Position numbers and translations under genes: made by a program. From Deltaproteobacteria bacterium (GTDB lineage: Bacteria > Myxococcota_C > UBA6777), in NCBI GenBank assembly GCA_002731275.1, contig PCBK01000104.1:44743-108742 (forward strand): DNA of 64,000 bases. The letters are read 5' to 3'. The notes below the pieces were generated by a model that was not told the DNA's origin, made no database searches, and saw only the letters and a list, made by a program, of their open reading frames with translations. Each line of letters begins with the position of its first letter. Positions within the stretch are counted from its first letter, which is position 1. Shown in pieces: positions 46,401 to 64,000 of the stretch.

Positions 46401-49400
46401 GTGTTCTCTTCGAGGTCATCGGGGATCGGGACCTTCAAGGTAAATGACGCCGACTGACCCGCCTTGACGGAGACCTTTTGTTGGTAGGTCTTTTCGAGGA
46501 CTTTGATCTCTATGTCGGCGATCTGGTCGAAGATTCCCTGGTTTTTAACGGTGTAGGTGAGCGTCGCGTGTGTCCCTGCGGCGAAGGCCTGTCCTGCAGC
46601 AGGTGGGATGAGCTTGAGCTGTGGGGCCGGACGGGTGAAGCTGACTTCTTGCTCTGCGCGTGTCGCCCCTGTTGTGTCGCGCAATTGGACGGACGCTGTC
46701 CGTTTGCCAACTGGTGCCATGACGAGGGGGATCGAGATGGTGTAGGTCTGTGTCTTCCCGGCAGCGACGGAGACTGGAAGGTCTGTAACAAAGAAGCCCG
46801 CGTGGATATACAGAGAGCCTTTGAATGGATCGAGACCGGCGTTGGTGACTTCTACATCGAAGACATAGGCCGTGTCTTTGCGCGCACCTGTGAGGACCTT
46901 CATGGAGATAGAGATGGGGTTGATGACCTTGAAGGTGTGCTTCACGACCACGCCGCTCCCTGGTGTCACAACGCCTGAGAGAGTGTAATTGCCTGGCGCG
47001 AGGCGAGGTTGCGTGTATGTTCCTGTCCCTTTGGTGCTGGCGTTCAGTGTGTGGGAGAAGGTCTTCTCGTCGAGCTCCCTCGTGTCATCTGAGAGAGAGA
47101 GGTACACTTCATAGTTGGCCGCGAGTGCGACGAGATTCGTGACCTCGTAGGGGATGTTGATCGGTTCATCACTGCGGAAGGTCTGCTTTGCACCCACAAA
47201 TGACAGAGAGGCTTTGGGGGCGACGATCTCGATCTGGTAGGTCTTGCTGTCACCGTATGTTTCGACCTTGATGGTGTGTGTTCCTACTGGGAGATAGAGG
47301 GCACCTTCGCCTTTGACCACCTGTGCAGGCTCGCCTTTTTGTACACCGGGCATCATGTGGCTCGTCGAGAAGGACTCTGTCACTGTCGCACTGACAGGTG
47401 TGATCGAGACGATGTATTCGCCTGCGCGCTCACCTGTGACGGAGAGTGTGTAGGGGATGCGTATCAATCCAGAGGTCGCACGTGTTGGTGGTGTCGCGGT
47501 GATCGTTGCCTTCAGGCAGAACCCTACTTGTTTGGTCACGGTTGATTGTAGATCTTGTGTGCTCGTCAATGTGAACGTCGCGTTTGACGTGACCCGTTCA
47601 TGAAAGACGAGCTCAATGGCATCACCGGCGGGGATGGTGACGGTTTGTTGTTGAGGTGTTGCGCCACCAGAGAGGGTGAGTGTCACGAGGCCTTCGACGC
47701 TGCCGTCGTTGGTGATCGTCGCACGCACGGTGAAGCTCTCAGCGTTGACACAAGAGGGCGCGCTGACCGTTATCTTGAGACCCGGCTGGAGCGTTGTGAA
47801 GGGTAATTCTAAGGTGGTCGTTGTCAGCCCGTTGGCGGTCGCAGTGATGACAAATGAGTGGTTGCCGGCTGTTTGTGGTGACCAAGAGGCTGTGAACAGA
47901 TGTTTGCTTTGTGAGGCGAGGTTGAGTTGGGTTTGGGTGCTCAAGTTGTTGCCATCGCTGTCATCGATCTTGAGTGTGATGCCCTGGATGGCTGTGGTGT
48001 TGAGATTGATGAGCGAACCTTGCAGTGTGACTTTGCCACCGACACGGACGAGTTTGACGTCGAGCTGTCCTTCGAGCTTCCAGTCTTTCGCGCCAACACT
48101 GAAGGTCGCGTTGCTTTTGGCGAGCTGAAGATTTTGGTCCGTTTTGAGGACGCCTTCGACAAAATATTGCCCTGGTTGTTTGGGCATGGGGAAGGCTTGT
48201 GTTCCATTACTTGTTTGTCCGGGCGAGACATTCACAGGGGCGACGACATGGGTAAAGAGGACCTGTCGTGTGTTGGCGATTCCTTTGCTGTCTGGTGTGG
48301 GTGTGGAGCCATCGTCTGTTTTCTCTGCGCCCTGGAGAACGAAGAGCTCACCTGTTGCGTTTCCTGCGATAATTTCGGAGAGTCCATCGCCATCGAGGTC
48401 GGCGATCACTGGTGGCATCATGCTGGAGCTATAAGACAGGATGAAGGGCGCCGTTCCATTGGCGACATCGACCATGTAGAGTTGACCTGCGAAGGGGTCG
48501 TCGTGCTTGCCTGTTTGGATCAGGAGGTCGGGTTTGTGGTCACCATTGAGGTCGGAGACACGTACACGAGCTTCCAGTCCTTGTGTGTTGGGGATGGTGC
48601 TTCTCTTTTTCACCTGTCCGGTGTGATCGTATAGGATGTACTCGATGTCGCCGTTGGATGATGTGGCTGCGAGGACGACGATCTCAAGGGTCTTGCTGTT
48701 CGATGAAGAGGGATAGACTGCGAGGCCTTCGTATTGTCCGGTGCCGATCTGTTTGGACCACTTTGTGGCACCTGTGTGACCATCCATCACGATGAGTGTG
48801 CCTGGAGTGACTGTGTCGATATAGCTCCCTGCGTAGTATCCTGTGAGGAAGATGGCCTCTTCTTTTCCGTCACCGTCGATGTCTGCGGTGATGGGTGTGG
48901 AGGAGACTTTTTGTAATGAATCGCCAGGTGTCGCGGCTTTTTGGATGAACCGAGTGGTGCCGTTGTGATTGAGCAGGCCTGCGATATCTCGTGCCGAGCC
49001 TGGATAGCTACCCGAGGTGACTGTCGCGGCGAAGGCACCATTTCCGGCGACAAGTTCGAGTTTCCCATCTTTGGTGCTGTTGGAGGTGTTGCATGTCCCT
49101 GTTGTGCAGAGGCCTCCGAGATCGGCGACGGCCAGGGGCATCGGTGGATCCCAGGAGAGAACAGACGTCCCAACAGACCACTTGACTTTGCCTGTCGCTG
49201 CGTCGAGGAGTGTGACGATGTGGTTGGAGGGGGCACCTTGAGAGGGCGGCCTCGCTGTCATCCCGATGTCTAGTTTTCCATCGTTGTCGATGTCTGCGAG
49301 CAGTGGTCGTCCGACGGCTTCACAGCCTGTACCGAGAGAGGTCGTCCAGAGGACAGCGCCTTTGCTACCTGAAAGGGCCTGAACACTACATGAGGTCGTG

Positions 49401-52400
49401 CCGATGATGACTTCGAGGCCTGGTTTTCCATCGATGTCGGCGACGGCGACGCTGCCGGCTGCGTTGACGATGGCGCGCCAGAGTCGTTTTCCATCTTTAT
49501 CGAGCGCGACGACTTCGCCAGCGTGGGAGACGGTGATGATCTCTGGTTTGTTGTCGTTGTTGATGTCTGCGACGACAGGTGCGCGTGGTGAACGATCTGT
49601 GCTCCAGTTGGTCGGTGAGATGACAGTCTGCCAGAGCTGGGCGTTGTTTTGTGGTGAGAAGAGCGCCGTTCCAAAGGATGAACCCCAACGTTTGGGGGAG
49701 CCTCTGAACATCGGCCAGGGCGCGGTGGGTGATTGTGTGGGGTAGCGGCTTTTGATGTTCTTTGTGTCGACGCGGCGCTCTTTGGAGATGGTGAGTGTGA
49801 GTGTGCTGTTTGTTATTTCACCGTTATTTGCGGTGAGTGTGTAAAGGAGCTTGCCGCTGTCTGTGGGTTGGTAATTGTTTTTGTCCGTCGAGACAGAGAG
49901 CGTGGTCTGGAGACCTGTCAGGGTGATACTCTCTTTAAACGTCTTGCGTAGCTGGTTGTTTTCTCGCAGCTCGACTGTGAGCGTGTACGTCCCGCTGGGG
50001 GTGTTGTTGGGTGGGATGAGCTGGAATGTTTTCGTATGTTTGGCAGGGAAAGCCGCGCCGCCATCGGTGTGGATGATGTATGTACCATCAGAGGAGAAGA
50101 GTGTGGCGATCCATCCGACAGTCGCGGCGGTACCACCTTCGTTTTTGACAGTGGCGATGATGGGTGTACCTGCGTTGACGCTGTTGGATTGCAGATGGAG
50201 TGTAAAGCGGGCATCTGGCAAGGAGAAGTACTGTGTCTTTTTGGTTGATTGGCCAGAGGGGAGTGTGAAGGTGGCTTCGAGTTTGTGTACGCCTGCAGGG
50301 AGTGATTTGATGGGGACAGTGAAGGTATGGGATTGGAGTGTCGCAGAGGAGAAGGTCAGTGGTTTGCTTTGTGTGAAGGACAGCGCAGGTGCAGAGAGTG
50401 TGAGTGTACCTTGTAGTGAACCGACAAAGCAGCAGAGAGGATCGACTGTGACGGAGACTTCGGCGTCTTTGCCGACTGCGAATGCGTTACCAGTGACGTA
50501 GATGGAGAGGGATGGGTCGGGGACAACGACGATGAGTGTTTGTTGTCGTGTGTCGTTGGTGCCGCCGACGTTGATCTCTGTTTGGAGTTGGAGCTGTCCG
50601 CCTTTGTGGTTGTATGGGATCTTGTATTGGATGGTGAAGGATTTTTCTTCGCCGACGTCGAGTGTTTGTTTTGTGATCTGCCCTTTTGTGAAGCCAGTCA
50701 ATTGCCATGTCGCGGAGGGGGTGAGTTGAAAGCGTCCTGTGTTTTTGAGTGTGAGTGTTCTTTGGACGTCTTCGCCGAGACGGACAGCGCGTGTGTTGGG
50801 GGTGAGTGAGATAGACATCGAAGCAGGGAGTTTGATGGAACCATCATTACGACCATCCACTGTTTCGACGTAGTATTCAAGAGTATACTCTCCAAGGGGA
50901 AGGGCATTGGGGAGAGGTTGCAAAGAGATCGTTTGTGTACTGTTTCCCTTGAAGGTCGTGATATTTTTTGTATCGGACTTTAGAACACGACCCTTTATGT
51001 CCTTGAGGGCGGCGTAGACTGTGGCATCGACATCAAGGCTTGAGAGACTTTTTAGTTCGAAGGTGATGGGGGTGCCAGGGGAGAGTTGAGCGGTGAGCTT
51101 TGGTTTGATTTGGATTGTACGACCTGCGACAAAGACGGGGTGGGTTATTTGTTGGAGCTTGAAGGTTTTGCCTCCACTCAGATCGTACAGAGATATATGA
51201 AGTGGGAGTGAACCTGTTATTCTTTTTGGGAGAGATAGAGTTGTTTTCAGTGTAAGTTTTGTGTTGTTATCGAAGGTTGTGTTGAGGGTTTTTTGGGTAA
51301 ACGTTGAGGTACAGTCCTCATTGAGTAGCTCAATCATCAACTTACCTGGAAAAGTGATCGGGATTTTTGTTGAGATATTGACTGTGAGGTTGATTTGTTC
51401 ACCTGAGTGGTAACGTAGTTTGTCCGTTTGTGGTGTGAGGGTGATGTTTGGTTCTTCCCGAACAAGAGGAATTTGAACGGATTTTGCGAATGGCCATGGG
51501 TCTACAAAGCCTGAGGCAAAGGGGGGCTTTTGTACGTTGGGAGCGTCTTTGTCGAAGGCGACGAAGGTGAGAGTTTCATTTGTAGATGAATTTGTAGGTA
51601 TGGTGAGGGTTTGTGTTTGTTTCCAACTCTTGCCTTGTGTGAGTGTCGTGGGAAGTGGTTTGTTTGGGTCTTGTACATACAGATGGAATTGGCGTGGGCC
51701 AGGAAAGAGGGGCGGCAATAGGTTTTGCAGTTCGGCAGTTAAGGTGATGGTACTTTGTCGTGGTGTGTACAAGGGGTGTTTTGTGTACAGGCGCATTTGT
51801 AAACCGGAGAGATAGCGAAGTGCAGAGAGTCTTTCTCCGAGGATAAATCGTCCTTCAGGTAATTCGATCGGGCCAACAAGTGCATTCCCTTTGCTTGAGA
51901 AGATGGTGAGTTCTGTGTGGTAAATTCCGTGCTGTGGGTTGTCGGAGTTTTTTGGAAGTGTGAGGGAGTAGCTTAACTGTGTCACATCATTAGGTGAAAG
52001 AGTTTTCGCGATTTGTTTGTGGTAAAGGATTTTGTCTCGGTTGGGTGAGAGGACTCGAATTCGTATGTGTGAGGCTTTTTGTGTGCCCTTGTACGTATAA
52101 GAGAGTTTTTGTTCAAGTTTCTTTTCAGGGGGATTGTACGTGATGGATTTGGGGTCTTGTAACCAAGTGAGCGTATCACGAATGATATCTCTGTCAGTTT
52201 GTGTGGATTGTGACCAATAGTGGCCCCAATCAGCATAGGACGTGGAGAGTACGATTGTGCCTTTGTCGTGAGGGTATACTGCGCTAATGGGGTGTCCTGT
52301 TAGGGTATGTCGTAACAAGATTGTGGCAGTTTTGGGGAGTTGTGTGAAGTAACCATCGAGGGGGATGTCCAATCTCTGGCTTGTGAGAGATGAGAGGGTT

Positions 52401-55400
52401 TCGTGTTCGGTGCTAGCTTTGCTTGAGTCAAAGAAGCATGAGATGGCTTCGTTCCAGCCCTTTGCTTTGATGTTCCCAGGGAGGACAGACCACTCCTTGC
52501 CCCAGGCTTGTGAGAGGACGAAGAGGCGTCCACCTTGTTTGACGTAACCATCGAGGGCGGCTTTGAGTGCTCTGTTTGTGGATTGGCCGCCAAGTGCGCC
52601 ACTGGGAATGAACAAGATTGGATATTTTTTGTGGATTGTGGGAGCAAATGAACGTGGGAGGATGGCTGCTTTTTCACCGAATGTAGCGAAAAGTTTGAGT
52701 GCGTGTGGAGCGTGTTCAGAGTCTAGGATTGCGATGTGAGCGTTTGGGTCGATGTTTTTGGCATCTTTGTAGCGAGGTGCATGTGTGGAGGTGTCGACAT
52801 TTTCGTCGGGATTGTCGCAGGAGGGGACATTTTTTCGGATGGTTGACACTGATTTTACGATACAAGCATTGACTTTGGGTGAGCAGGTTTGATTGATGTC
52901 TGTACGGCTACATCGACTATCGTATTTTGAGGAGTTACAGGCGATGGAGGGCAGTTTGACCTGAAAAGATACGAATTGTTGGTTTAATTGCTGTGTGCTA
53001 TCTGACCAGTTTCCGGCACAGTCACGTGCAGAGACTCTGAATGAAAATGTCTTTCCCTGACAATCCTTGGGAAGTGTGATGGTTATTGATTGTGGTGTTT
53101 TTGGGCATGAGCCGTTTTTGATGGGGAGATACTTTTCTTTTCCACCGTCTATTTGCCAACTTCCAGATGTAAGTCCAGTGAGGGGATCGTGGTATGTGAT
53201 GGTGACTTTGTTGTCTTGTCTTTTCCAGGTGATGACAGGACGTTGTAGGTCTGCATAGAACTTAAGTGGTGTGCTGGAGAGTTTGCCGAATGTTGTTGTT
53301 GGGAGCATTTCATCGGCTTTTGCGTTTGGTGCTTTGCTGTGTTTGAAAGCGCCAATCCCCTGTGCTCCGGAGACTTTTACATTGAGTTCGAGTTGGGTTT
53401 GTTGTTGGAATTCCTTGAGTTCAAATGCCCCCTCAAGAGTAGCCTTTTGGAGGGGAGGAGAGAGAGTATCAGTGAGTTTCCAGGTAAGTGGCTGGGATGT
53501 CCAAAGACCTAAAGTGCCGGAGAGGACTTGTATTTGTGGTCCTGTAGAGAGCATTGGTTGATCAAAGGAGAGTTTTGCATAAAGAAGGTCACCAATACAT
53601 GCAGGGTTTGAAGGTGTAGTACCTCTCTTTTTGATAAGCGTGTTATTGGCAAGTTGCGTTCCCAAGAATTCGGCATTTGTGAGGATGGGGGGAGTGTTGT
53701 CAACGATGACTTTTTGTATCGTGGTTTTTGACCAATCCCTTGAACCAAACGCTGAGCGGACTTTCATTTGGATTTCATAGCTGTCGTCTGGAAAAAGTTT
53801 TTTGTTTAATTTCATTTGGTTCGTGTTCCACGAGCCTTCCTTACTGAAATACTCAACGTTTCCACTTGGTGACAAATTGTTCGTGAAAATCAACCAATAC
53901 TGGTTTGGTGTTGTGAGATCATTTGTTTTGCTCCCTTGAGCAAAAGAGAATATAGTCGTTGGAGGGATCGTCTTTGGTGAAGATCGTTTGGTTGGAAGGC
54001 CTGCTAGGAATTCTGAACTTGTGTATAGTGAGCGCCATTGGAAGGGAGATGCCGAACCACCATTTTTGTGGTATATCCTGTACCAAGCTTCACCGACTCC
54101 AGAGTAGTCATCAAGGCATTTTTCGGTGCATACTTTTGTGTTTGCATCACATACTCTTCGGAAAATACATGTTGGGTCACCAACTTGTCCCACGATGTCT
54201 ACTTTTCCCTTGACTGTGAACAAAACTCCCGTTGCGCTTTTGTTTGTGGATACTGCACTTTTATGTGTTAGGGCCTGTTTACTTTGGTAGTCATCGGGAA
54301 CAATGGTATGGGATATGATCAATGGTTTTTTGGAAGGGTAAGGATCTGGATTTAATAAGAATGTGTTGTTTTGATATGTTCCATCAGCATTTTTTTTGAC
54401 TCCAATTGGATCTCGTCCTGATTTGGAGTTGTCACGAATTCCACTTCCACCGGCTGTATTTTGCGTTCTTTTTTGAATTGAAAAATGCAAATGCCTTCGA
54501 GGATGATCTGCTGTAATTTCGCCGAGCTTTATATGTTTTGGGTAAGAATTGGATGTGCGGATAAAGTCAGAAACTCTGATGTGTGAGTATATGAGAGGTA
54601 AACCATTTGAAAGAACAGTGACTTCCTCAAAGGCCAACTGTGTTGGACTTGTAGCGCCTGCGGATAGAACTCTACCCGCACTCACAGCACCTACAGTGGT
54701 GCCAGAAGGGGCTGTGATATCAATTCCTGCATGGTAAAGGCCTTGTTTGTATGTTCGATACGATGGATATATGTCCGAAATTTTCCCCATAGCAGGTATC
54801 TGCTTTCCATTCTCTGTTTTTAGCAGAGTGGCTGCATCCGTTGAAAACGTGATAGCATATTTACTTGGTAGGCAGTCTGTTGATGTCGGGCTATTACTGC
54901 ACTTCCAATTATTAGTCTCAGCAAGCCGATGCTTATTTATGAGATATGGGATTGCAAATGGAATCTCTGTTGTACCACCTGTTGTTTTTTGTATGAAGAT
55001 AGCCGGGTCCAATTGTGTGTTTTTTGTAAAGTTTGTAATGTCGAGCGATTTCTTTGACATAAAAACAGACCAGGTGTTCGCTCCTCTTTTCTTGAAGTAG
55101 ATAGTAACATCGTAGTTTGAGTTTTGATCTTTCTCAAAGAGAATCCTCCAGTCCCGGGCTTCTTTATGAGCATCAAGTTGGTATACCTCTATTTTTTTCA
55201 AACCACCAGATTTAGGTCGAATCTCTTTGGTGCAGTTTTTGATTTCGAGTTGTTTTGTTTTTGGATCAATGCCGTGAGTACAATGTTGAAAATTTAGGAT
55301 GCTCCCACCACTCCATAGAGGCCATTTTGGTACAGAGCTGTTTGCATATAGCTTCGTAGGTGGAAGATAAATCAATAGGAAAAGAATTAGGAGCTTTCTC

Positions 55401-55402
55401 AT
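43496..55402 (-). CDS. Giant (about 3.97k aa) surface protein: N-terminal M23/LytM domain, GATase-like domain, CARDB-type and FG-GAP/propeller repeats, MYXO-CTERM-like anchor
   Basis: MRKLLILFLLIYLPPTKLYA signal; YHAGIDITAPSGTTVGAVSAGRVLSAG and HLHFSI (HxxxD and HxH of M23); VADINNDNKPEIITV/LADIDNDGKLDIGM; ends GCGCTASSMGLPDAQWLLWMLVFFGVCYRKRRSRD. Start overlaps the upstream stop (ATGA). Confidence 0.85.
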   Translation of the reverse strand: MRKLLILFLLIYLPPTKLYANSSVPKWPLWSGGSILNFQHCTHGIDPKTKQLEIKNCTKEIRPKSGGLKKIEVYQLDAHKEARDWRILFEKDQNSNYDVTIYFKKRGANTWSVFMSKKSLDITNFTKNTQLDPAIFIQKTTGGTTEIPFAIPYLINKHRLAETNNWKCSNSPTSTDCLPSKYAITFSTDAATLLKTENGKQIPAMGKISDIYPSYRTYKQGLYHAGIDITAPSGTTVGAVSAGRVLSAGATSPTQLAFEEVTVLSNGLPLIYSHIRVSDFIRTSNSYPKHIKLGEITADHPRRHLHFSIQKRTQNTAGGSGIRDNSKSGRDPIGVKKNADGTYQNNTFLLNPDPYPSKKPLIISHTIVPDDYQSKQALTHKSAVSTNKSATGVLFTVKGKVDIVGQVGDPTCIFRRVCDANTKVCTEKCLDDYSGVGEAWYRIYHKNGGSASPFQWRSLYTSSEFLAGLPTKRSSPKTIPPTTIFSFAQGSKTNDLTTPNQYWLIFTNNLSPSGNVEYFSKEGSWNTNQMKLNKKLFPDDSYEIQMKVRSAFGSRDWSKTTIQKVIVDNTPPILTNAEFLGTQLANNTLIKKRGTTPSNPACIGDLLYAKLSFDQPMLSTGPQIQVLSGTLGLWTSQPLTWKLTDTLSPPLQKATLEGAFELKEFQQQTQLELNVKVSGAQGIGAFKHSKAPNAKADEMLPTTTFGKLSSTPLKFYADLQRPVITWKRQDNKVTITYHDPLTGLTSGSWQIDGGKEKYLPIKNGSCPKTPQSITITLPKDCQGKTFSFRVSARDCAGNWSDSTQQLNQQFVSFQVKLPSIACNSSKYDSRCSRTDINQTCSPKVNACIVKSVSTIRKNVPSCDNPDENVDTSTHAPRYKDAKNIDPNAHIAILDSEHAPHALKLFATFGEKAAILPRSFAPTIHKKYPILFIPSGALGGQSTNRALKAALDGYVKQGGRLFVLSQAWGKEWSVLPGNIKAKGWNEAISCFFDSSKASTEHETLSSLTSQRLDIPLDGYFTQLPKTATILLRHTLTGHPISAVYPHDKGTIVLSTSYADWGHYWSQSTQTDRDIIRDTLTWLQDPKSITYNPPEKKLEQKLSYTYKGTQKASHIRIRVLSPNRDKILYHKQIAKTLSPNDVTQLSYSLTLPKNSDNPQHGIYHTELTIFSSKGNALVGPIELPEGRFILGERLSALRYLSGLQMRLYTKHPLYTPRQSTITLTAELQNLLPPLFPGPRQFHLYVQDPNKPLPTTLTQGKSWKQTQTLTIPTNSSTNETLTFVAFDKDAPNVQKPPFASGFVDPWPFAKSVQIPLVREEPNITLTPQTDKLRYHSGEQINLTVNISTKIPITFPGKLMIELLNEDCTSTFTQKTLNTTFDNNTKLTLKTTLSLPKRITGSLPLHISLYDLSGGKTFKLQQITHPVFVAGRTIQIKPKLTAQLSPGTPITFELKSLSSLDVDATVYAALKDIKGRVLKSDTKNITTFKGNSTQTISLQPLPNALPLGEYTLEYYVETVDGRNDGSIKLPASMSISLTPNTRAVRLGEDVQRTLTLKNTGRFQLTPSATWQLTGFTKGQITKQTLDVGEEKSFTIQYKIPYNHKGGQLQLQTEINVGGTNDTRQQTLIVVVPDPSLSIYVTGNAFAVGKDAEVSVTVDPLCCFVGSLQGTLTLSAPALSFTQSKPLTFSSATLQSHTFTVPIKSLPAGVHKLEATFTLPSGQSTKKTQYFSLPDARFTLHLQSNSVNAGTPIIATVKNEGGTAATVGWIATLFSSDGTYIIHTDGGAAFPAKHTKTFQLIPPNNTPSGTYTLTVELRENNQLRKTFKESITLTGLQTTLSVSTDKNNYQPTDSGKLLYTLTANNGEITNSTLTLTISKERRVDTKNIKSRYPTQSPTAPWPMFRGSPKRWGSSFGTALFSPQNNAQLWQTVISPTNWSTDRSPRAPVVADINNDNKPEIITVSHAGEVVALDKDGKRLWRAIVNAAGSVAVADIDGKPGLEVIIGTTSCSVQALSGSKGAVLWTTSLGTGCEAVGRPLLADIDNDGKLDIGMTARPPSQGAPSNHIVTLLDAATGKVKWSVGTSVLSWDPPMPLAVADLGGLCTTGTCNTSNSTKDGKLELVAGNGAFAATVTSGSYPGSARDIAGLLNHNGTTRFIQKAATPGDSLQKVSSTPITADIDGDGKEEAIFLTGYYAGSYIDTVTPGTLIVMDGHTGATKWSKQIGTGQYEGLAVYPSSSNSKTLEIVVLAATSSNGDIEYILYDHTGQVKKRSTIPNTQGLEARVRVSDLNGDHKPDLLIQTGKHDDPFAGQLYMVDVANGTAPFILSYSSSMMPPVIADLDGDGLSEIIAGNATGELFVLQGAEKTDDGSTPTPDSKGIANTRQVLFTHVVAPVNVSPGQTSNGTQAFPMPKQPGQYFVEGVLKTDQNLQLAKSNATFSVGAKDWKLEGQLDVKLVRVGGKVTLQGSLINLNTTAIQGITLKIDDSDGNNLSTQTQLNLASQSKHLFTASWSPQTAGNHSFVITATANGLTTTTLELPFTTLQPGLKITVSAPSCVNAESFTVRATITNDGSVEGLVTLTLSGGATPQQQTVTIPAGDAIELVFHERVTSNATFTLTSTQDLQSTVTKQVGFCLKATITATPPTRATSGLIRIPYTLSVTGERAGEYIVSITPVSATVTESFSTSHMMPGVQKGEPAQVVKGEGALYLPVGTHTIKVETYGDSKTYQIEIVAPKASLSFVGAKQTFRSDEPINIPYEVTNLVALAANYEVYLSLSDDTRELDEKTFSHTLNASTKGTGTYTQPRLAPGNYTLSGVVTPGSGVVVKHTFKVINPISISMKVLTGARKDTAYVFDVEVTNAGLDPFKGSLYIHAGFFVTDLPVSVAAGKTQTYTISIPLVMAPVGKRTASVQLRDTTGATRAEQEVSFTRPAPQLKLIPPAAGQAFAAGTHATLTYTVKNQGIFDQIADIEIKVLEKTYQQKVSVKAGQSASFTLKVPIPDDLEENTYAALHRWSSAPDATLLPSRAGLTKFKVTGVKIDVKASLDKRSYKAGETALLSLEVRSIGTTQQATIQCRIRYGLHQEHKTLKLSATKQSLTVKMPLGQRRHHNMTIQCLSMKGRSLHIDSIFVHWAYDDMWLKMDKDVYSPGETVSYTIGASSDMNVSVLAIPLHQPVVHQKAYVLKKGVEQKGSFALPAVLPGGTQTVEVTFGKETRRFFFDVKGPFVYAKALSLDRETYQPEETIKSELILEARGTYDVDIVYTILKSSGVALQTGVVVSTKVTKGMNLVLADVKAPATAQGGLVLQAEVFVKGNKSMPMGRALARFELGDFAVRGVHPSKQEYALQLEDAELRVELHSVKKVKGSLRVSIEGAQIYDKEHEVDGFATIKIPVSKTSLPRIGVYLIEATFVVGERQGRAINTLRVADGTTPLIEITGVKEGEHYNQKVWPQIVVTGVHIVKDRSANLLNGLPFASGSPVEQEAEYTLHAKAQNAWGKTAETKRSFVLDMTPPEIHINGVSEGDKTTSFTPTIKVTDKYLKGEAYTLNGNPYNKGDSIDTPGKYTLLVRGWDKAGNTSEEIVSFELVQSTKLSLDILSPKKDAQFTEHQFTLKGKVSAPKAHVQIEGITVDVSTDGMFEGVVHIQRCQLEVQVTAEWEGIRVSKTLPIQLTTSTQAPLRHAQWEHPTRAAITGAAFTNDTLYVSVASTKQILSLDLKSGVFGKPEEYIKLTGTPGPLAIQDGTLWVIETDTQQLKAFKNKKEISSAFVTTAPTQLVLDTQGRPYVYGKDKIVYVRQDGTWKTYIDLQSYDVTALHWDRTEDLLYISDAKSKALWQVKDGALTSVMSLSFVPGPFTKGKDGSFVSKHKTGQLFTGKESKKWVTLPTGIQGVFTVGEHHWVVTDRTVWGFRTGPLHCDGEPLEKYREGQFPDGGEPDDPRARPGCGCTASSMGLPDAQWLLWMLVFFGVCYRKRRSRD

Positions 55403-57531
55403 CTGTTTGTCCTTTTCTTTTTGAGCATTCTCAAAAGGGCTTTGTCTATATAGTTTTGCATTTTGTTCCACTTTGGAGCCTGTCGGAGTTGTCTCAGAAG
55501 AGAGATAACTTTCTTGCCTCCGATGCCACTGAGGGCACTTATGCTTGCTCTTTTTTGTTGAGCGCTTGATTTTGGATCATTTAAGATCCTAATAAGATCT
55601 GGTGTTGCAGGCTTTGCTTTTTCATCAAAGTAACACAGGAGCCAAGCTGCATCGGCTTTATGCTTGGGGTATTGCAATAAAGATATTATGTTTGGAATGG
55701 ATGAATGAGTCAAGGCGGGAGCTCCTGGAGTTTGGACGATTTTATTGAATATTGAGATTGTAGTTTGTCGAATACGCGTATTGGGATGGGTGAAAAACTG
55801 AGAGAGGAAAAAAGCATGTTTGATTAAGAAGTTTCTCGATATTGGATTCACGTGTAAACTTTTTAGCTGCTTTGTCAAAAGCGGGGATGTGGATATCTTC
55901 CTTTTCAAGAAACTTCCCAAGTCTACTGAGTGAAGTATTGCCTTCAGAAGGATGTACTTTCCGAGAACGCCTGCTTGTGGTAGTTTGGCTAGTATTTGCT
56001 CTCGATATTTGGGAAAGGCTGCTGTGAAGTCTGAGAGTGTGTATATCATTGGGAATAGAATGTATTCAATGATATGATCGCTGTGAGATTTGCGAATGTC
56101 ATTTCCCGAAATCAATTGTTTGGACAGGTTTTGAAAGTTTGCGTACTTTGTTCTATTGTTGAAGAGTTTGCTCAATAAATGGGGGCTTACTTTTGATTTC
56201 CACAAGACATAGTTAAGCAAGTATTTGTATACATACAAAGAGGGCCATTTTAATTTTTCATCTGACATCATTTTTTTGAACTCAGGCAAGTACTTTTTGG
56301 GATGTTTGAAGATGAGAAGTGCAATCAGTTCTCCCAATGAACGAAAGGAATTCGTTGCTTTCTTTTTCGTCTTATTGAGCTTTTCTATGTCTGAGTCATA
56401 TGCTCGGAGCATTTTGATGGATTCAGAGAGCAACATATTCGGATATTTCTTGGATAGATCTTGCATGACAATTTTGCGTACAAAGCTGGATATGTAGGGT
56501 CTTTCAGAGAATGTTTGGAGCAAGGGGATAACATACTCTTTTGGGAATGGTGGCTTGAATTTGAAAATCTCTTTAAGTGCCATTCGTCTGTAGTGTGTAT
56601 TTTTTTCTTTTTGTGCTTCTATCAAGAGCATCTTTCTTTGCTTTTCATGTGTTTTTGTTTTCATCCTTACGAGTGAGAAGGTTGTCCAATACCGGGTGTT
56701 TTTGTTTTTATGATGAAGTAGAGTCTTCATGTGCTTCATTGCTTGTTCTGGAATGTTTGCTAGTGTCAGCGCTGCATAACGCTTTAAATAGTCTTCTATG
56801 TATGGCAAGGTTTTTTTTGTCATTGCTTTAAGTGCAAGTGGTAGAAGCATTTTGTTTGTCTTGTCTGTTTTGGAACTCACTAGAAGTAGCGTCGTTGTTG
56901 CTGCGAATGGTGGTTTCCACTTATTGCTAACCAGTTTTTTTTCGAAAGCTTTCAACATATGAGGGGTCGATGATTTTGCGTAGGAGCCGAGAAATCCAAA
57001 CAAGATTGCGAGATTCATTTTATCATAGTTTATTTGTTCGTATAGCTTGCGGTCTGGTGGCTTTTTTGTAAACATTGCAAGTAGAGTTGGGTAAATCTTC
57101 TTGAGCAAGGGGATATTCTTTTGCCTGACCAGACTTTCTAGCGTCATATACTGATATGACTTGTGTTTTAGGAGTTGAACGACAGCTTGTGGGTTGTTGA
57201 GCTTTATATTGTAGATGATTGCTCTCAGCTTTGAAAAGTCATTTGAGAACTTTTTACAAGTGGGGCAATACTTTAAAATGATTGGGATCAAGCACTTTCC
57301 TTCTTGATCCATCTGTGCGAGCTTTGCTGCTTGGGATCGAGAGCTTGCTAAAGCCTTCTTGAACGCACGTTGAAGCAAGTTCTTCCTTGCAGGGGTGCAT
57401 TGTGTTTGAGTTGTTCTTGTTTTGAGGTGTTTTGGAGTGACACAACAAGTTCCAATAAGAGCAGTCAAACCTAGTGCCAGCATCCAAGTGAGACGGCTCC
57501 ATGTTGGTTTGCTTTTTACTTGTTTCTCCAT
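55399..57531 (-). CDS. HEAT-repeat-like exported protein (paralogue C)
   Basis: N-terminal hydrophobic segment; alpha-helical repeats (YAALTLANIPEQAMKHMKTLLHHKNKNTRYWTTFSLVRMK); ends ISALSGIGGKKVISLLRQL. Confidence 0.75.
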   Translation of the reverse strand: MEKQVKSKPTWSRLTWMLALGLTALIGTCCVTPKHLKTRTTQTQCTPARKNLLQRAFKKALASSRSQAAKLAQMDQEGKCLIPIILKYCPTCKKFSNDFSKLRAIIYNIKLNNPQAVVQLLKHKSYQYMTLESLVRQKNIPLLKKIYPTLLAMFTKKPPDRKLYEQINYDKMNLAILFGFLGSYAKSSTPHMLKAFEKKLVSNKWKPPFAATTTLLLVSSKTDKTNKMLLPLALKAMTKKTLPYIEDYLKRYAALTLANIPEQAMKHMKTLLHHKNKNTRYWTTFSLVRMKTKTHEKQRKMLLIEAQKEKNTHYRRMALKEIFKFKPPFPKEYVIPLLQTFSERPYISSFVRKIVMQDLSKKYPNMLLSESIKMLRAYDSDIEKLNKTKKKATNSFRSLGELIALLIFKHPKKYLPEFKKMMSDEKLKWPSLYVYKYLLNYVLWKSKVSPHLLSKLFNNRTKYANFQNLSKQLISGNDIRKSHSDHIIEYILFPMIYTLSDFTAAFPKYREQILAKLPQAGVLGKYILLKAILHSVDLGSFLKRKISTSPLLTKQLKSLHVNPISRNFLIKHAFFLSQFFTHPNTRIRQTTISIFNKIVQTPGAPALTHSSIPNIISLLQYPKHKADAAWLLCYFDEKAKPATPDLIRILNDPKSSAQQKRASISALSGIGGKKVISLLRQLRQAPKWNKMQNYIDKALLRMLKKKRTNR

Positions 57532-57590
57532 TTATCTCCATACTCCTTGTTTTTGATAGGTTCTATCTCTTTTGAAATAGAATCGCTTGG

Positions 57591-57680
57591 TTGTAAACGG
57601 CTCTTTTTCAACCCAGGCCGTGTATGATTTTACGAGTATACTCAACATCTTCTTTTCCTGCAACGCCTTTTTTATGCGGC
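57591..57680. repeat. Leader repeat A, copy 1
   Basis: TTGTAAACGGCTCTTTTTCAACCCAGGCCGTGTATGATTTTACGAGTATACTCAACATCTTCTTTTCCTGCAACGCCTTTTTTATG; near-identical to 60099-60188. Confidence 0.95.
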
Positions 57681-57776
57681 TTCTGTTTCCGTTCTGTCCG
57701 ATGTTTACTCTTCTCGTGTTCTCCTTCCATTTTTATCTTCAAACTTTCCATCTTGCGCTCAAACTCTCTTTCTTCG

Positions 57777-57939
57777 ATCCTTCAAAATAAAACCCTATCA
57801 ACCAAGCAAACATCTCTTTTCTGCTTCCCAATCAATTCCTTTCAAACCATGCGTCCAGAATTTCCGCCGAGGAAATTCTATCCAAGAAAACCGCGAGGTT
57901 TTCAAGGGGGATGCAACGCCCTGCGTTGCTATGTGGAGT
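57777..57939. repeat. Intergenic repeat B, copy 1, with three consecutive hairpins
   Basis: GAATTTCC-GCCGA-GGAAATTC (57858-57878); GAAAACC-GCGA-GGTTTTC (57886-57903); GCAACGC-CCT-GCGTTGC (57913-57929). Confidence 0.9.
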
Positions 57940-57965
57940 GAAAAAACAGAATGTAAGGGCTGTTG

Positions 57966-60077
57966 TCATTTTCCTCTTTGCTTTATTTGTTGGAGTGTTG
58001 ATTGTAGCTCTCTCTTCCATGGAGACCATTTTTTTTCTCTTTGTAACCTTTGCAACAAGGGGATGTCGTTCCTTCTTGCAAGTTTGCCAATGACAATTAA
58101 AAACACTGTTCTTTTCTGTGGGGCTGACGGCTTTAGTAACTCGTCAAAGATAGCCTGCAAAAAATCAGAGGACCTTTTTGGATATCGTGACAATACAGCC
58201 GCAGCTCTTGTCTTAATATGTAGAGCTGGATGTGATAATTGATGGCGAATCAAAGGAATAGACTTCTTGCTGCGTGGAGCAATTCTTTTGAATAACCCAA
58301 GGGTCATAAATTTCACACGAGGGTCTTTTTGTTGAAGAAGCTTATGAAAGATGGGAGTGTTTTTTACGAGCAACGGAACGGAGAGCTTCTTCAAGGAGTT
58401 TGTGAGTACCTTCAAAAGGAAACGTTGTTTTTTGATGTTCATTGCTTGATGACCAAGCATTGAAATGATAAGACCCTGAAATTCTTGTGAGTGTTGTGTT
58501 ATCGAGGAGTAAAGGAAGAGCCTATCCATAAATTTCTTACTTACTTTCACTTGAATGAGTTGACCCACTTCACTTTTTACAAATGCCATGAGTTGAGGTG
58601 CTGCTTTGATTTCTTCTTTGTTGACGTTTTGAATGGAGTGAAGAAAGATGTACTTTCCCTTTTGGGATGAAGTGAAGAGTTTGTACAGGATTGGAAAGAA
58701 CTTTTTTCTGTTTTCCTGTAAAAGGTTTGTTAATGTGCTGCAGAGTGAGTATTTACAATCTTCCTCTGTCACTGCTGAAGGCTCTGTATGTAGTGCTTTT
58801 AGGGCAAGCTTACATACGAGGTTTGGTGCTCTTTTTTGCAGCAGATCCAGTCTAAGGACTTTCAGGTATTGTATCCTGTACCAACGTTGTTTTTTTTGAA
58901 AAAGCTGTGAGCGATTGTATAAATGCATGAGAGGTCTCAGCAATTTTTTTGTAGGTCTTCTTTCACTTGTGAGTCCATACCAGGCCAAAGCACGTATTTT
59001 TTTTACTTTGTCAATCAACCCTAAAAGAAGAATCTTTTGCCTTTCACTCTCGTGTGCTTCGGACTTTGTGACATTTTCTATCACACTGTATCGCAATGGT
59101 TTGCATTGGCTCTTCATGAATCGAGCATAGTGTGTATAGGCTTCTTTTCCAGCCCGAGTCAGAGCCAATAATGCGATCGCTGAGAGTCTATGTTGATTTC
59201 CATCCCTGTGTGAGCTGGGTGGGGAGGGGACTGAGTGGAATTGACATTTTTCGATAATGTGGGCCAAAAATGAGGTTACCTTTTTGTTTTCTGCTCCAAT
59301 TGCAGCACAGATGTTTATGAGAGTTTCAAAGTATCTGGTGTTGCTGTGTTGTTCTTTTTTCGCCAATGACAAGATGAAGGGTGCCACTTGTTTTGCCTGA
59401 AGCTCTAGCTTCATTAGGATATACCCAATGTTCGAACGGATAGATTCGACTTTGTGCTTTCTGAATTGATGTTCCCACTTCATTTTGATGAGTGAAGATA
59501 GTATCGGTATGATTGTGTCAAACTGAGCTTCGCTCAACTTGCATTGCATCAACTCAGGAGATTGTTTTGTCATATAGTTTATCAATTTTTCCATACGACT
59601 TCCTTTAAACCAAGAGGCCGCGGTACGTTTTTTCCAGTAAACAACTCCCGCACACTTTTGTAAGAGAAGGAGGGTTCCATCTACCCATAGTTTAGAATAT
59701 CGAGGTCGTAGCAGTATTGCTACGGTTGTGGCATACTTTGGTTGTAAGTGGATGATGAGCTTTTTGAAAAGTCGATGCTCTCTCTCTTTTTGAGGGTTAT
59801 ATGAGCTAAGTAGAACGGGGACTAAACATCCTCCCTCTGAATCAAGTTTTCGAAGTTGATTCAGGTGAAATTTTCTTCTCTTTCTTGTTGCTCGAAGAAA
59901 TCTCTGAATTTCTTTCTGGATGTTTTTTTGCCTTCGAAGTGAACAATGGAGAGCAGGCTTGATTTTTTTGGGGATACTCACCTTTTTTCCACTTGCAGAG
60001 CTACTGAAGCAAACAAGGTATGCAAAGAGAAGACTTCCAATACATTTCCAGACAAAAGAGTATGTTTTTTTTCTCAT
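57966..60077 (-). CDS. HEAT-repeat-like exported protein (paralogue B)
   Basis: Signal MRKKTYSFVWKCIGSLLFAYLVCFSSSASG; shares LDSEGGCLVPVLL with MDQEGKCLIPIIL of paralogue C and the same helical repeat layout. Confidence 0.75.
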   Translation of the reverse strand: MRKKTYSFVWKCIGSLLFAYLVCFSSSASGKKVSIPKKIKPALHCSLRRQKNIQKEIQRFLRATRKRRKFHLNQLRKLDSEGGCLVPVLLSSYNPQKEREHRLFKKLIIHLQPKYATTVAILLRPRYSKLWVDGTLLLLQKCAGVVYWKKRTAASWFKGSRMEKLINYMTKQSPELMQCKLSEAQFDTIIPILSSLIKMKWEHQFRKHKVESIRSNIGYILMKLELQAKQVAPFILSLAKKEQHSNTRYFETLINICAAIGAENKKVTSFLAHIIEKCQFHSVPSPPSSHRDGNQHRLSAIALLALTRAGKEAYTHYARFMKSQCKPLRYSVIENVTKSEAHESERQKILLLGLIDKVKKIRALAWYGLTSERRPTKKLLRPLMHLYNRSQLFQKKQRWYRIQYLKVLRLDLLQKRAPNLVCKLALKALHTEPSAVTEEDCKYSLCSTLTNLLQENRKKFFPILYKLFTSSQKGKYIFLHSIQNVNKEEIKAAPQLMAFVKSEVGQLIQVKVSKKFMDRLFLYSSITQHSQEFQGLIISMLGHQAMNIKKQRFLLKVLTNSLKKLSVPLLVKNTPIFHKLLQQKDPRVKFMTLGLFKRIAPRSKKSIPLIRHQLSHPALHIKTRAAAVLSRYPKRSSDFLQAIFDELLKPSAPQKRTVFLIVIGKLARRNDIPLLQRLQREKKWSPWKRELQSTLQQIKQRGK

Positions 60078-60098
60078 CCCTTATTTCTCCTTTGTATG

Positions 60099-60188
60099 TT
60101 GTAAACGGCTCTTTTTCAACCCAGGCCGTGTATGATTTTACGAGTATACTCAACATCTTCTTTTTCTGCAACGCCTTTTTTATGTGGC
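60099..60188. repeat. Leader repeat A, copy 2
   Basis: Near-identical to 57591-57680, including GAGTATACTC at 60142-60151. Confidence 0.95.
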
Positions 60189-60223
60189 AAATGAACAACA
60201 AAAGATGAATGTAGATGCCGGAA

Positions 60224-63200
60224 TCATTGTCTTCTCCGTAGAGGTTGAATGGTTCTCTTTGTTATGGTCACTACGTTTTTATGTGAACTTCGTAAAAGCA
60301 TTTTGTATAATTTGAGTGAGGATTCAAATAGGCCGAAGTGTGTGATTGTGCTCTGAAGGGAATGTGCAAAATAAAGTTGTTCCCGCTCTCGTTGGGCAAG
60401 AACGTGTTTTCCCACTAAGTGATCAATAGATGTAATGATTTCATAAAAGGTGTGTTTTTGTTTTTGTGATAATAGACAGTGTATTTTTTGAGAAAGGTAA
60501 AATCGAAGAAGGGAGTATATGATGGAGAAGAACGAGTCGGAAGGCTGATGTTTTTTTGCGAGCTGCATTCGGATTTCTTTCAACAACAAATTAAAATTGT
60601 CTTGTGCAATAAAAGAACAAGAGGTCTTTTTCGTCACCTGTATGAGAGAGCTAGATAAACGAAGACGTGAGACCGTTGTTAATATCCAGAATCCGTGAAG
60701 GGTGATAGTTTTCAAATGGCTGCGTCCGAGCTCTGAAAGAAAAAGAAGTACAAGTTGTTTTTGTAAAATGCCGTTGGTGGAAAAGCTCGATGTTGAGCTT
60801 GTTGCAGAGGAGGATATTTGCTCGAAGAAGTGCGTGGGAAGTTCAGTTTTGTATTTTACATAGAGTTGCAACGTTTGCTTTTGGATGTTTTTTTTATAAA
60901 AAGACAATGCAAAGAGTGTGTCTAAAGAGCGACTTCTGATGTGGCGAGTCAACATACGATTCTCGACAATCAAGAAGAGTTTACGTTGCAGAAGAGGAAG
61001 TGTGGAGAATAGCTGTCTTGTAAAGGAAGCCGCGAGAGAATGCTTTTGCTGAAGGCTTGATTTCAAGAAGAAGAGTAGTCTCTTCAATGTGGCCTCAGAG
61101 TATTTTAATGGGTTGGATAGCATCTTGAAGGCATTGGACTTGACATGAAGATAGTAACCATTCATGATATATATGGTGACAAGCACTTTCCAGATTTCAG
61201 ACCTAGAGCCTTTTATGTATTCGAGATTTTCGGTGTGAGGGTGTTCAAAAAAACGGATAAGGACTTGTTCTAGTCGTTGGAGTATCTGGTTCAGTTTTGA
61301 ATTTTGTGTGCTGGGAGGAAGTTCTGTATTTCTTGGGCAAAGCTTTGATACGTTTGAATCAGAAGTTTTTTGACGTATAGCACAGAGGTTTTGTTGCGTG
61401 ATAGATAGAGTTCTCAGAATCATTGGTTTCAAGAGCGTCGTTGAGCAATATAGTTGAACGATGTTCTTAAGAAAGCTGCATTTGTTTTGAATAAGGATGT
61501 GTTTGATTGACCTGAGGATGAGTTTATCAAGGGCTGGAGGTGTTTTCTTGAGCTGTTGGTTCATGAGCTTGACTTGAGCGCTCAGTATTTTTGAGCGATG
61601 CTTGGGATGATATGTATGCAGATGCTCAAAGATTTTTAGGATGTAGTATTTCGTATTGATGTTTTCCGTAGAAAGATACTTTTTCATCAATGATGGAATG
61701 ATCTGAACACCAAATTCTTGCAAAGCATTCATTGCTATTTCGGGGATCGGAAGATTGCTGGTGAAAAATCTGTGTAAAAATAAATCATGTCGTTCAAGGT
61801 GCTGAATAAGAATAGGTATTGCATTTTTTAGTTTCAGCTTTCCGAAGAGGTAGAGGACTGCTGAAGCTGTTTGTGAATAATTGGGACTGTTCTTTGACAA
61901 CTCTATTGTTTTGAGAAGTTCGGGGTATGGGTTATGGTTGTGGCTCATTCTGATGAACTGCTTTAGAACTTTGGTGTTTCCTAAGGCTCCTTTTTTCAAG
62001 CAAATACTCAGTGCTGCAAGAGCGGGCTCTTTTAACTTCTGCAATATGCGAAGGAGAGCTGTCTCTTGGCAAAGAGCCCGATGTTTTGTTTGCAGGAGTT
62101 TCTTGATGATTGGCAGAAGAAACGTGTTTCTTCTGTTTGGTGAGGTGTTGTTAAATAGAATTTTTATGATCTGTACATAGTCTGTTGCAGGCCTTGGGAT
62201 AGACATGCGGGTGGTTTGTGCATGAGGGTTCCCTCGTTCAAATAGTATTCGTTTGAACAGGGGAAGAAATTCTGGTGAGTAAAGGTTCAAACATTTAAGC
62301 AGGTGGAGTGCTTTGGAAAGAACCTGTGTATCCGCATGGTTTTTCTGCAGAACTTTTTGAAAGAAAAGTCTCATTTGGGGACGTTTTAAAGACGTCCATA
62401 GAAAAAGACACTTGCAAGTTAAGGTATGACCAATGCTGTATGTGTTGTTGGCTTTTAAAACTGCTAGGGAAATTTGGGAGTATTTTTTACTCACTCTGAA
62501 TAGATATTCTCCAAGCTCACGAGAGTCACATTTGATGTATCCTTTTGCAATAGAGCGTTGAACTGTTTTGAATAACGTAAGCTGAAGATGTTTCGGTAGG
62601 TTCTTTGTTAGAAGAAGTGCTGTGTGGGCGGCTGGGCCAGAGAGTAGTTTTTTTAGGACATGAACGTCTAGATAGAGGTCTTTGAATTTTTTGCGTAGGA
62701 TTCTCATAAACTGTCGGGTGCAAAGAGAAGATGTCGCTGTTTTTGTGTGAGAGTGGACTAGATGTAATGAGAATGTGAAGAGAGATTCGTTTCTGGGCAA
62801 AATAAAGTGATTAAAGAATGAGGCAAACTCCGGATGCGGAGTGCAGGTTTTGTCTGAAATGATTGGGTATATTGCTTTTAATAGTTTGCGTTTGCTCCGA
62901 AAGAAAACGGTGGATTTTTGCAACAAAAGAATTTTGCATTGGGACTTTGTACTGCCAAAGCAAGGTGAGTTTGGGGATGCCAAGTACTCGAAGATAGGAG
63001 ACGCCTTCTCTCCAAAGGCGACGATGACGGGGAATATCTGAAGAATGATATGCTCGCTTGTTTCAGCTCGGATTTTTTTTGAAAGCAACGATAGTAAATG
63101 TTCGTTTGTATCGCGTGTAAGGAATTTTCTGAGAATTGTTCTTGTGCTGGGATTGTTGTTTGTTGTAAATAGGTTTTCTAAAGCTTGCTGTTCGCAAGTT

Positions 63201-63553
63201 TTTGTTGTGCTTCCTGAAGGTAGAGTTTTTTTCAGGAGTTCAGAATATTTCTTGTGTACCGGAAGGGGCATAGTCTTTAAAAGGATACGAGAGATACAAG
63301 AGGAAACTTGCTGTTTGTACTTTTGTTGTGGAGGAGCTTTCTTTCTTTTTCCCATACATGCTGCATTCATTGCAAAAAGCAAGGCAAGATAAATGAACAG
63401 TATGAGCTTCTTCTGCTTGAATGTACGAGTTGTTCTTTGTTGAAGAGAGATTTTCAAAAAAGTTGAGAGTTTTACAACAGTTTCAAACAACATTTGTTGC
63501 TGGGCTGGTTTCGCGAGGACTCCTTTCTTTTTGTTTTTTTTTGATACGTTCAT
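60224..63553 (-). CDS. Large HEAT-like helical exported protein (paralogue A)
   Basis: Hydrophobic export segment LILFIYLALLFAMNAACMG; long helical-repeat body (LKLKNAIPILIQHLERHDLFLHRFF; NIPEIAMNALQEFGVQIIPSLMKKYL style); start could be internal. Confidence 0.7.
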   Translation of the reverse strand: MNVSKKNKKKGVLAKPAQQQMLFETVVKLSTFLKISLQQRTTRTFKQKKLILFIYLALLFAMNAACMGKRKKAPPQQKYKQQVSSCISRILLKTMPLPVHKKYSELLKKTLPSGSTTKTCEQQALENLFTTNNNPSTRTILRKFLTRDTNEHLLSLLSKKIRAETSEHIILQIFPVIVAFGEKASPIFEYLASPNSPCFGSTKSQCKILLLQKSTVFFRSKRKLLKAIYPIISDKTCTPHPEFASFFNHFILPRNESLFTFSLHLVHSHTKTATSSLCTRQFMRILRKKFKDLYLDVHVLKKLLSGPAAHTALLLTKNLPKHLQLTLFKTVQRSIAKGYIKCDSRELGEYLFRVSKKYSQISLAVLKANNTYSIGHTLTCKCLFLWTSLKRPQMRLFFQKVLQKNHADTQVLSKALHLLKCLNLYSPEFLPLFKRILFERGNPHAQTTRMSIPRPATDYVQIIKILFNNTSPNRRNTFLLPIIKKLLQTKHRALCQETALLRILQKLKEPALAALSICLKKGALGNTKVLKQFIRMSHNHNPYPELLKTIELSKNSPNYSQTASAVLYLFGKLKLKNAIPILIQHLERHDLFLHRFFTSNLPIPEIAMNALQEFGVQIIPSLMKKYLSTENINTKYYILKIFEHLHTYHPKHRSKILSAQVKLMNQQLKKTPPALDKLILRSIKHILIQNKCSFLKNIVQLYCSTTLLKPMILRTLSITQQNLCAIRQKTSDSNVSKLCPRNTELPPSTQNSKLNQILQRLEQVLIRFFEHPHTENLEYIKGSRSEIWKVLVTIYIMNGYYLHVKSNAFKMLSNPLKYSEATLKRLLFFLKSSLQQKHSLAASFTRQLFSTLPLLQRKLFLIVENRMLTRHIRSRSLDTLFALSFYKKNIQKQTLQLYVKYKTELPTHFFEQISSSATSSTSSFSTNGILQKQLVLLFLSELGRSHLKTITLHGFWILTTVSRLRLSSSLIQVTKKTSCSFIAQDNFNLLLKEIRMQLAKKHQPSDSFFSIIYSLLRFYLSQKIHCLLSQKQKHTFYEIITSIDHLVGKHVLAQREREQLYFAHSLQSTITHFGLFESSLKLYKMLLRSSHKNVVTITKRTIQPLRRRQ

Positions 63554-63725
63554 CTTTGATCCTTCCCTATGTGCATAGTAAACAGTTTTTCTAAGCCCAA
63601 GCCATGGGGGATGTGAAAGAGTATACTCAACTTCTCATACGGACGCAATCCTCTTTCTTCCTTTTCTTTCACCTTTTGTTCTTCTCCAGGCATTCAGGCT
63701 TTTTTCTCCAAAACCCAAATCCAAC

Positions 63726-63888
63726 ATCCTTGAAAATAAACCCCTATCAACCAAGCAAACATCTCTTTTCTTCTTTCCAATCAATTCTTTTCAAACCATG
63801 CGTCCAGAATTTCCGTTTAGGAAATTCTATCCAAGAAAAACGGAGTTTTTCAAGGGGGATGCAACGCCCTGCGTTGCTATGTGGAGTT
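63726..63888. repeat. Intergenic repeat B, copy 2, with three consecutive hairpins
   Basis: GAATTTCC-GTTTA-GGAAATTC (63807-63827); GAAAAAC-GGA-GTTTTTC (63835-63851); GCAACGC-CCT-GCGTTGC (63861-63877). Confidence 0.9.
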
Positions 63889-64000
63889 GGGCATCAGAAT
63901 AAAAAGGACCGCTCTTGATGGATTCCAGGGTCTTACCTGACAAGGACTTGTATTAACGATGAGAGTAAAGCTTTTCCTCTTCGTCGTGTATTGTGTACAT

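Follow-up and report, generated by a model that had tools for sequence, protein, structure and literature searches.

Mobile palindromic repeats of the REP type are found mainly downstream of coding regions (PMC3733652). Those tagged with CGTC, which include dRS3 of Neisseria, have no known transposase; they carry CGTC at the end of a stem-loop with an 8-9-bp stem that starts with two A/T pairs, a 4-5-nt loop and a CCA tail, and they occur mainly as head-to-head inverted dimers (PMC3733652). Pneumococcal repeats are enriched between convergent genes, and the SPRITE repeat lies close to gene 3' ends (PMC3049150). Within inverted repeats, template switching yields spacer inversion and homogenisation of the arms (PMC8604942), and it also produces multibase compensatory stem changes (PMC8794818).

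Here we describe E1, a three-hairpin element that occurs twice in a 64,000-nucleotide window of a Deltaproteobacteria bacterium genome (the whole stretch analysed, from contig PCBK01000104.1). What is new is E1 as a lineage-specific modular hairpin family; in kind, it resembles the known mobile palindromic repeats (REP/BIME, BOX). We think it probable that E1 is a non-autonomous REP/BIME-like and BOX-like hairpin repeat, specific to its lineage and modular in build, which has spread between genes with a tendency to sit one-way at their 3' ends, and that the two window copies are old members. A lineage-specific modular hairpin family is thereby added for a poorly sampled bacterial lineage.

Results

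The initial annotation had placed a repeat of about 160 bp at 57777-57939 (copy 1) and 63726-63888 (copy 2). These coordinates were correct: the copies, both on the plus strand, align over 163 bp with 93% identity and 12 differences (BLAST, 2.5e-64), and each consists of three perfect short hairpins in the same order, as had been described. Copy 1 begins with a pyrimidine/A-rich leader (57777..57852), which can be aligned with other E1 leaders, though at lower identity, and continues with a CGTC tag immediately 5' of hairpin 1 (57852..57855; cf. PMC3733652), hairpin 1 (AGAATTTCC-GCCGA-GGAAATTCT, 57857..57879), hairpin 2 (CCAA-GAAAACC-GCGA-GGTTTTC-AAGG, 57882..57907) and a single unit of hairpin 3 (GCAACGC-CCT-GCGTTGC, 57913..57929). 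The corresponding hairpins of copy 2 lie at 63806..63828 (loop GTTTA), 63831..63855 (GAAAAAC-GGA-GTTTTTC) and 63861..63877. The annotated loops of hairpin 1 are right, whereas its stem is 9 bp long (AGAATTTCC/GGAAATTCT) rather than 8; hairpin 3 is, as annotated, identical in both copies.

In 3000 shuffles, not even two non-overlapping stems of ≥7 bp occurred together, let alone three. Between the copies, changes affect 2 of 46 stem positions and 4 of 12 loop positions (Fisher p = 0.014). The sole two stem changes are the partners of one hairpin-2 pair, which confirms the reported C:G to A:T change that keeps pairing. Both copies share 10 bp past hairpin 3 (TATGTGGAGT) that are absent from the other copies inspected. 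These shared bases, together with the similar placement, point to an inserted element that was copied locally; the window pair most likely arose in this way and later diverged. Of the hallmarks of a MITE, inverted repeats in the window copies are only weak and non-terminal, and inspection of E1 flanks by eye revealed no target-site duplication. A search of Rfam with positions 57000-64000 of the window returned no family match at E up to 1.

Three genes on the minus strand lie next to the copies: gene A (55399..57531, 710 aa), downstream of copy 1; gene B (57966..60077, 703 aa); and gene C (60224..63553, 1109 aa), downstream of copy 2. Both copies had been said to lie upstream of HEAT-like genes. 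Their position holds for genes A and C, but only gene A has a significant Pfam HEAT_2 match (1.2e-8); that of gene B is marginal (0.0078), and gene C has no Pfam match, to HEAT or otherwise. Copy 1, in addition to lying upstream of gene A, sits directly 3' of gene B, which is convergent with it and whose stop codon is 36 nt from the hairpin-3 foot.

A promoter-like block (TTGC.., a 17-nt spacer ending in TTGAG, then TATACTC) is common to genes A, B and C, on the minus strand at 57590-57680, 60095-60184 and 63600-63660. The block is nearly identical between genes A and B over ~90 bp, although the two proteins show little similarity (E = 1e-4 over 63 aa); an exact 13-mer from it, GTTGAGTATACTC, has one further occurrence in the genome, within an ORF. 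Because gene B has this block without E1, the block is a matter separate from E1. Elsewhere in the window, positions 43496-55471 encode a secreted repeat protein of 3991 aa whose C-terminal tail, GCGCT...W...RKRRSRD, resembles MYXO-CTERM sorting signals. Judged by a window protein, the nearest named relative is a Deltaproteobacteria MAG (59% identity).

With two copies in one cluster, ahead of genes A and C, E1 might be taken for an ncRNA or a regulatory element acting in cis that is dedicated to these HEAT-like genes. We regard this as very improbable: apart from the absence of E1 at gene B, the predicted promoters lie ~80-115 bp downstream of E1, which places it outside the 5' UTRs, and the genome-wide distribution contradicts it. 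E1 is a dispersed family with ~25 copies in the 10.75-Mb source genome, as counted by BLAST (29 places), an exact hairpin-2 pattern (22 matches) and a covariance model (25 matches). More than 20 copies besides the window pair adjoin functionally unrelated genes, including those for PurE, NrtR-like, RibD-C, HNH, SDR, MopE/NHL, peptidase M15, PDDEXK_2 transposase, pentapeptide and DUF proteins, so E1 does not track HEAT-like genes and the proposal of a locus-specific structured RNA tied to them fails. The covariance-model search that the annotation had called for found E1 in its own genome only, with no match in four other genomes of the phylum or in 35 more distant ones (39 total). Scans of genome and viral contig collections with the hairpin-2 pattern, and BLAST searches of plasmid and phage collections, likewise gave no match.

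All copies follow one architecture, in which a ~85-nt leader, hairpin 1 and hairpin 2 are fixed in order and are followed by 1-8 tandem hairpin-3 units with a 29-bp period; this variable module is terminal, with no closing module after it. Copies are single and their hairpin-3 arrays run head-to-tail. Hairpin-3 units (≤1 mismatch) occur within E1 elements, with a single exception on contig 63. Many contigs end within E1 arrays, as expected for a repeat. Three members are divergent, namely the window pair and L009 on contig 4; all others belong to a young subfamily whose hairpin 1 has the sequence AGAATGGCTG-TCAT-CAGCCATTCT.

In 15 of 19 young copies, a reading frame that includes CIRPEWLSSAILSKKTDRFSR stays open through the element, which might suggest a small peptide. 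The probability of this is close to nil, since the other four copies contain stops, variation in the hairpins is 0.075, 0.069 and 0.049 at codon positions 1, 2 and 3 and thus not concentrated at the third, and old copies have lost the frame; on these grounds we ruled it out.

About two thirds of the copies with sufficient upstream sequence follow other hairpin families, forming mosaics. One such family, E3 (CCCAGGTTAAAACCTGGG...), is matched 40 times in the source genome, and five other genomes gave no match. Contigs of the source genome (L059-L088) contain intergenic islands of many short hairpin families (CCCAGGTT/AACCTGGG, ACCGGGTT/AACCCGGT, GGTCGGGCC.., CCCTCCTCTC..) that span several hundred bases or more. 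The E1 copy at L011 (10047-10868) borders directly on a piece of an Rhs-like C-terminal core (LPGQWYD...), into which it reads in frame.

E1 tends to lie at the ends of genes. Of the 20 copies with enough flanking sequence, 9 have their hairpin-3 foot no more than ~16 nt from a convergent gene's stop codon, against 5.8% of non-coding positions picked at random in these loci (p = 7e-7), the ~16-nt window having been chosen after the data were seen; an earlier, broader window gave 9/20 vs 19% expected (p = 0.008). At two loci, L013 (NrtR-like) and L018 (RibD_C), the gene enters hairpin 3 and its stop codon is supplied there: the proteins end in ...QRQA* and ...QRKA*, and these codons and the stop lie inside the hairpin. 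We consider it doubtful that E1 is a composite element of single-stranded hairpins which, with no transposase of its own, inserts one-way and precisely at gene 3' ends and can donate a stop codon and 3' UTR.

Adjacency to stop codons in a fixed orientation might instead reflect a functional 3'-UTR RNA (an mRNA stabiliser, an RNase barrier or a Rho-related terminator) that was spread by duplication and selected at gene ends. Both strands give stable folds (z from about -3.2 to -4.6), and the covariation described below would also fit such an RNA. However, about half of the copies are not beside a convergent stop codon, the hairpins have no U tract after them, wobble pairs read on the plus strand (11 G.T vs 5 A.C) show no clear strand preference, the four relatives examined in the phylum lack E1, and the inverted loops reported below indicate a process at the DNA level. 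We therefore judge a functional 3'-UTR RNA to be unlikely.

Over 22 distinct copies, standard pairs make up 98.1% of pair cells, and changes on both sides are seen in six pairs, five in hairpins and one in a speculative loop-flank helix; shuffled and slid controls gave lower values. Cells with two-sided changes number 27, vs 7.7 in shuffles. This covariation supports the view that the hairpins are kept. Independent events are few, because the family is small and consists mostly of one young subfamily, with only three divergent copies. Two further structures were set aside. A hairpin-3 loop-flank pseudoknot (columns 59-61 with 71-73) has real linked variation, but this rests on only three unit classes, and 7 of 22 are unpaired at one position; an outer stem linking hairpins 1 and 2 in the minimum-energy fold is 83% paired across copies, equal to shuffles.

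Among 50 hairpin-3 units, loops are inverted at three loci (AAA for TTT at L015 and L021, AAG for CTT at L017), each being exactly reverse-complementary to a class loop. These loops point to DNA template switching, and in the alignment of 24 copies changes in hairpin 1 are clustered on both sides. Since template switching alone keeps arms complementary, selection on RNA is possible but not needed. The annotation had proposed selection on structure; variation across the 22 copies does preserve structure, but this is no proof of selection, as the inverted loops fit template switching.

Alternatively, E1 could be inert debris left over from hairpin islands, with recombination rather than transposition behind its spread and with stems conserved wholly through mutation by template switching in quasi-palindromes; the inverted loops and the clustered hairpin-1 changes would fit this. 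The mechanism is documented (PMC8794818, PMC8604942), and E1 is mostly embedded in larger hairpin mosaics. Against this, placement at stop codons and a fixed module order in unrelated flanks suggest directed insertion, and we find the debris account improbable.

The annotation had also raised a REP/RAYT-type element. Dispersal of ~25 copies beside unrelated neighbors supports its REP part, whereas no RAYT was found: the genome's four PF01797 (Y1_Tnp) matches are IS200/IS605 TnpA genes with adjoining TnpB (OrfB_IS605), the latter confirmed by Pfam at L028, L030 and L031 and read from sequence at L029. E1 matches none of these four loci. One TnpA/TnpB pair of the IS605 type (L030, 225-2016) lies at the 3' end of another HEAT-repeat-like gene. 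GTAG REP/RAYT systems carry GTAG (or GTGG) at the hairpin foot; no GTAG is conserved at the foot of any hairpin in the alignment of 24 copies. The CGTC tag precedes hairpin 1 in 17 of these; six have an altered fourth base and one is truncated. One base separates the tag from the stem, which is 9-10 bp long with G-C as its second pair, and a loop of 4-5 nt; ATCCA follows. An integron attC site was rejected on inspection, given that GTTGCTG misfits GTTRRRY and the copies are scattered.

Discussion

If E1 is a non-autonomous REP/BIME-like and BOX-like repeat, as we favor, it would move as a single-stranded hairpin mobilized in trans by a putative enzyme, possibly one of the genome's IS200/IS605-type Y1 transposases, or else an enzyme since lost or unassembled. 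Its stems may be kept complementary largely through template switching of DNA within the inverted repeats. Where transcribed as 3' UTR, the hairpins may incidentally stabilize or terminate the upstream mRNA. Compensatory stem changes between repeat copies, usually read as evidence of functional RNA, can bear the footprint of template switching in the form of inverted loops, and placement at stop codons offers a way to test orphan CGTC-type repeats for targeted insertion.

Of the described systems, CGTC REPs share with E1 the CGTC at one hairpin end, a 4-5-nt loop and a CCA-like tail (ATCCA) after the stem, as well as a preference for sites downstream of genes, no known dedicated transposase and a capacity to interleave with other repeat families (PMC3733652). 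E1 departs from them in that its hairpin 1 stem, of 9-10 bp, begins with A-T and G-C rather than two A/T pairs and is one base away from the tag, and in that this hairpin belongs to a three-hairpin module with an 85-nt leader. Like GTAG REPs and BIMEs with RAYT, E1 consists of short extragenic hairpins in mosaics whose palindromes are kept via complementary changes; unlike them, it has no GTAG head, no repeat-flanked RAYT gene and fewer copies (PMC2817692). Nor does it form the inverted pairs of CGTC REPs and of typical REPs and BIMEs, being single with head-to-tail hairpin-3 arrays. BOX and SPRITE of pneumococcus, which we liken to E1 by features and not by sequence, are modular with one module variable in number, belong to small repeats that cluster and insert near each other, and are enriched between convergent genes, as E1 favors convergent stops (PMC3049150). 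E1 differs from these in lacking detectable terminal inverted repeats or target-site duplication, and its variable module is terminal.
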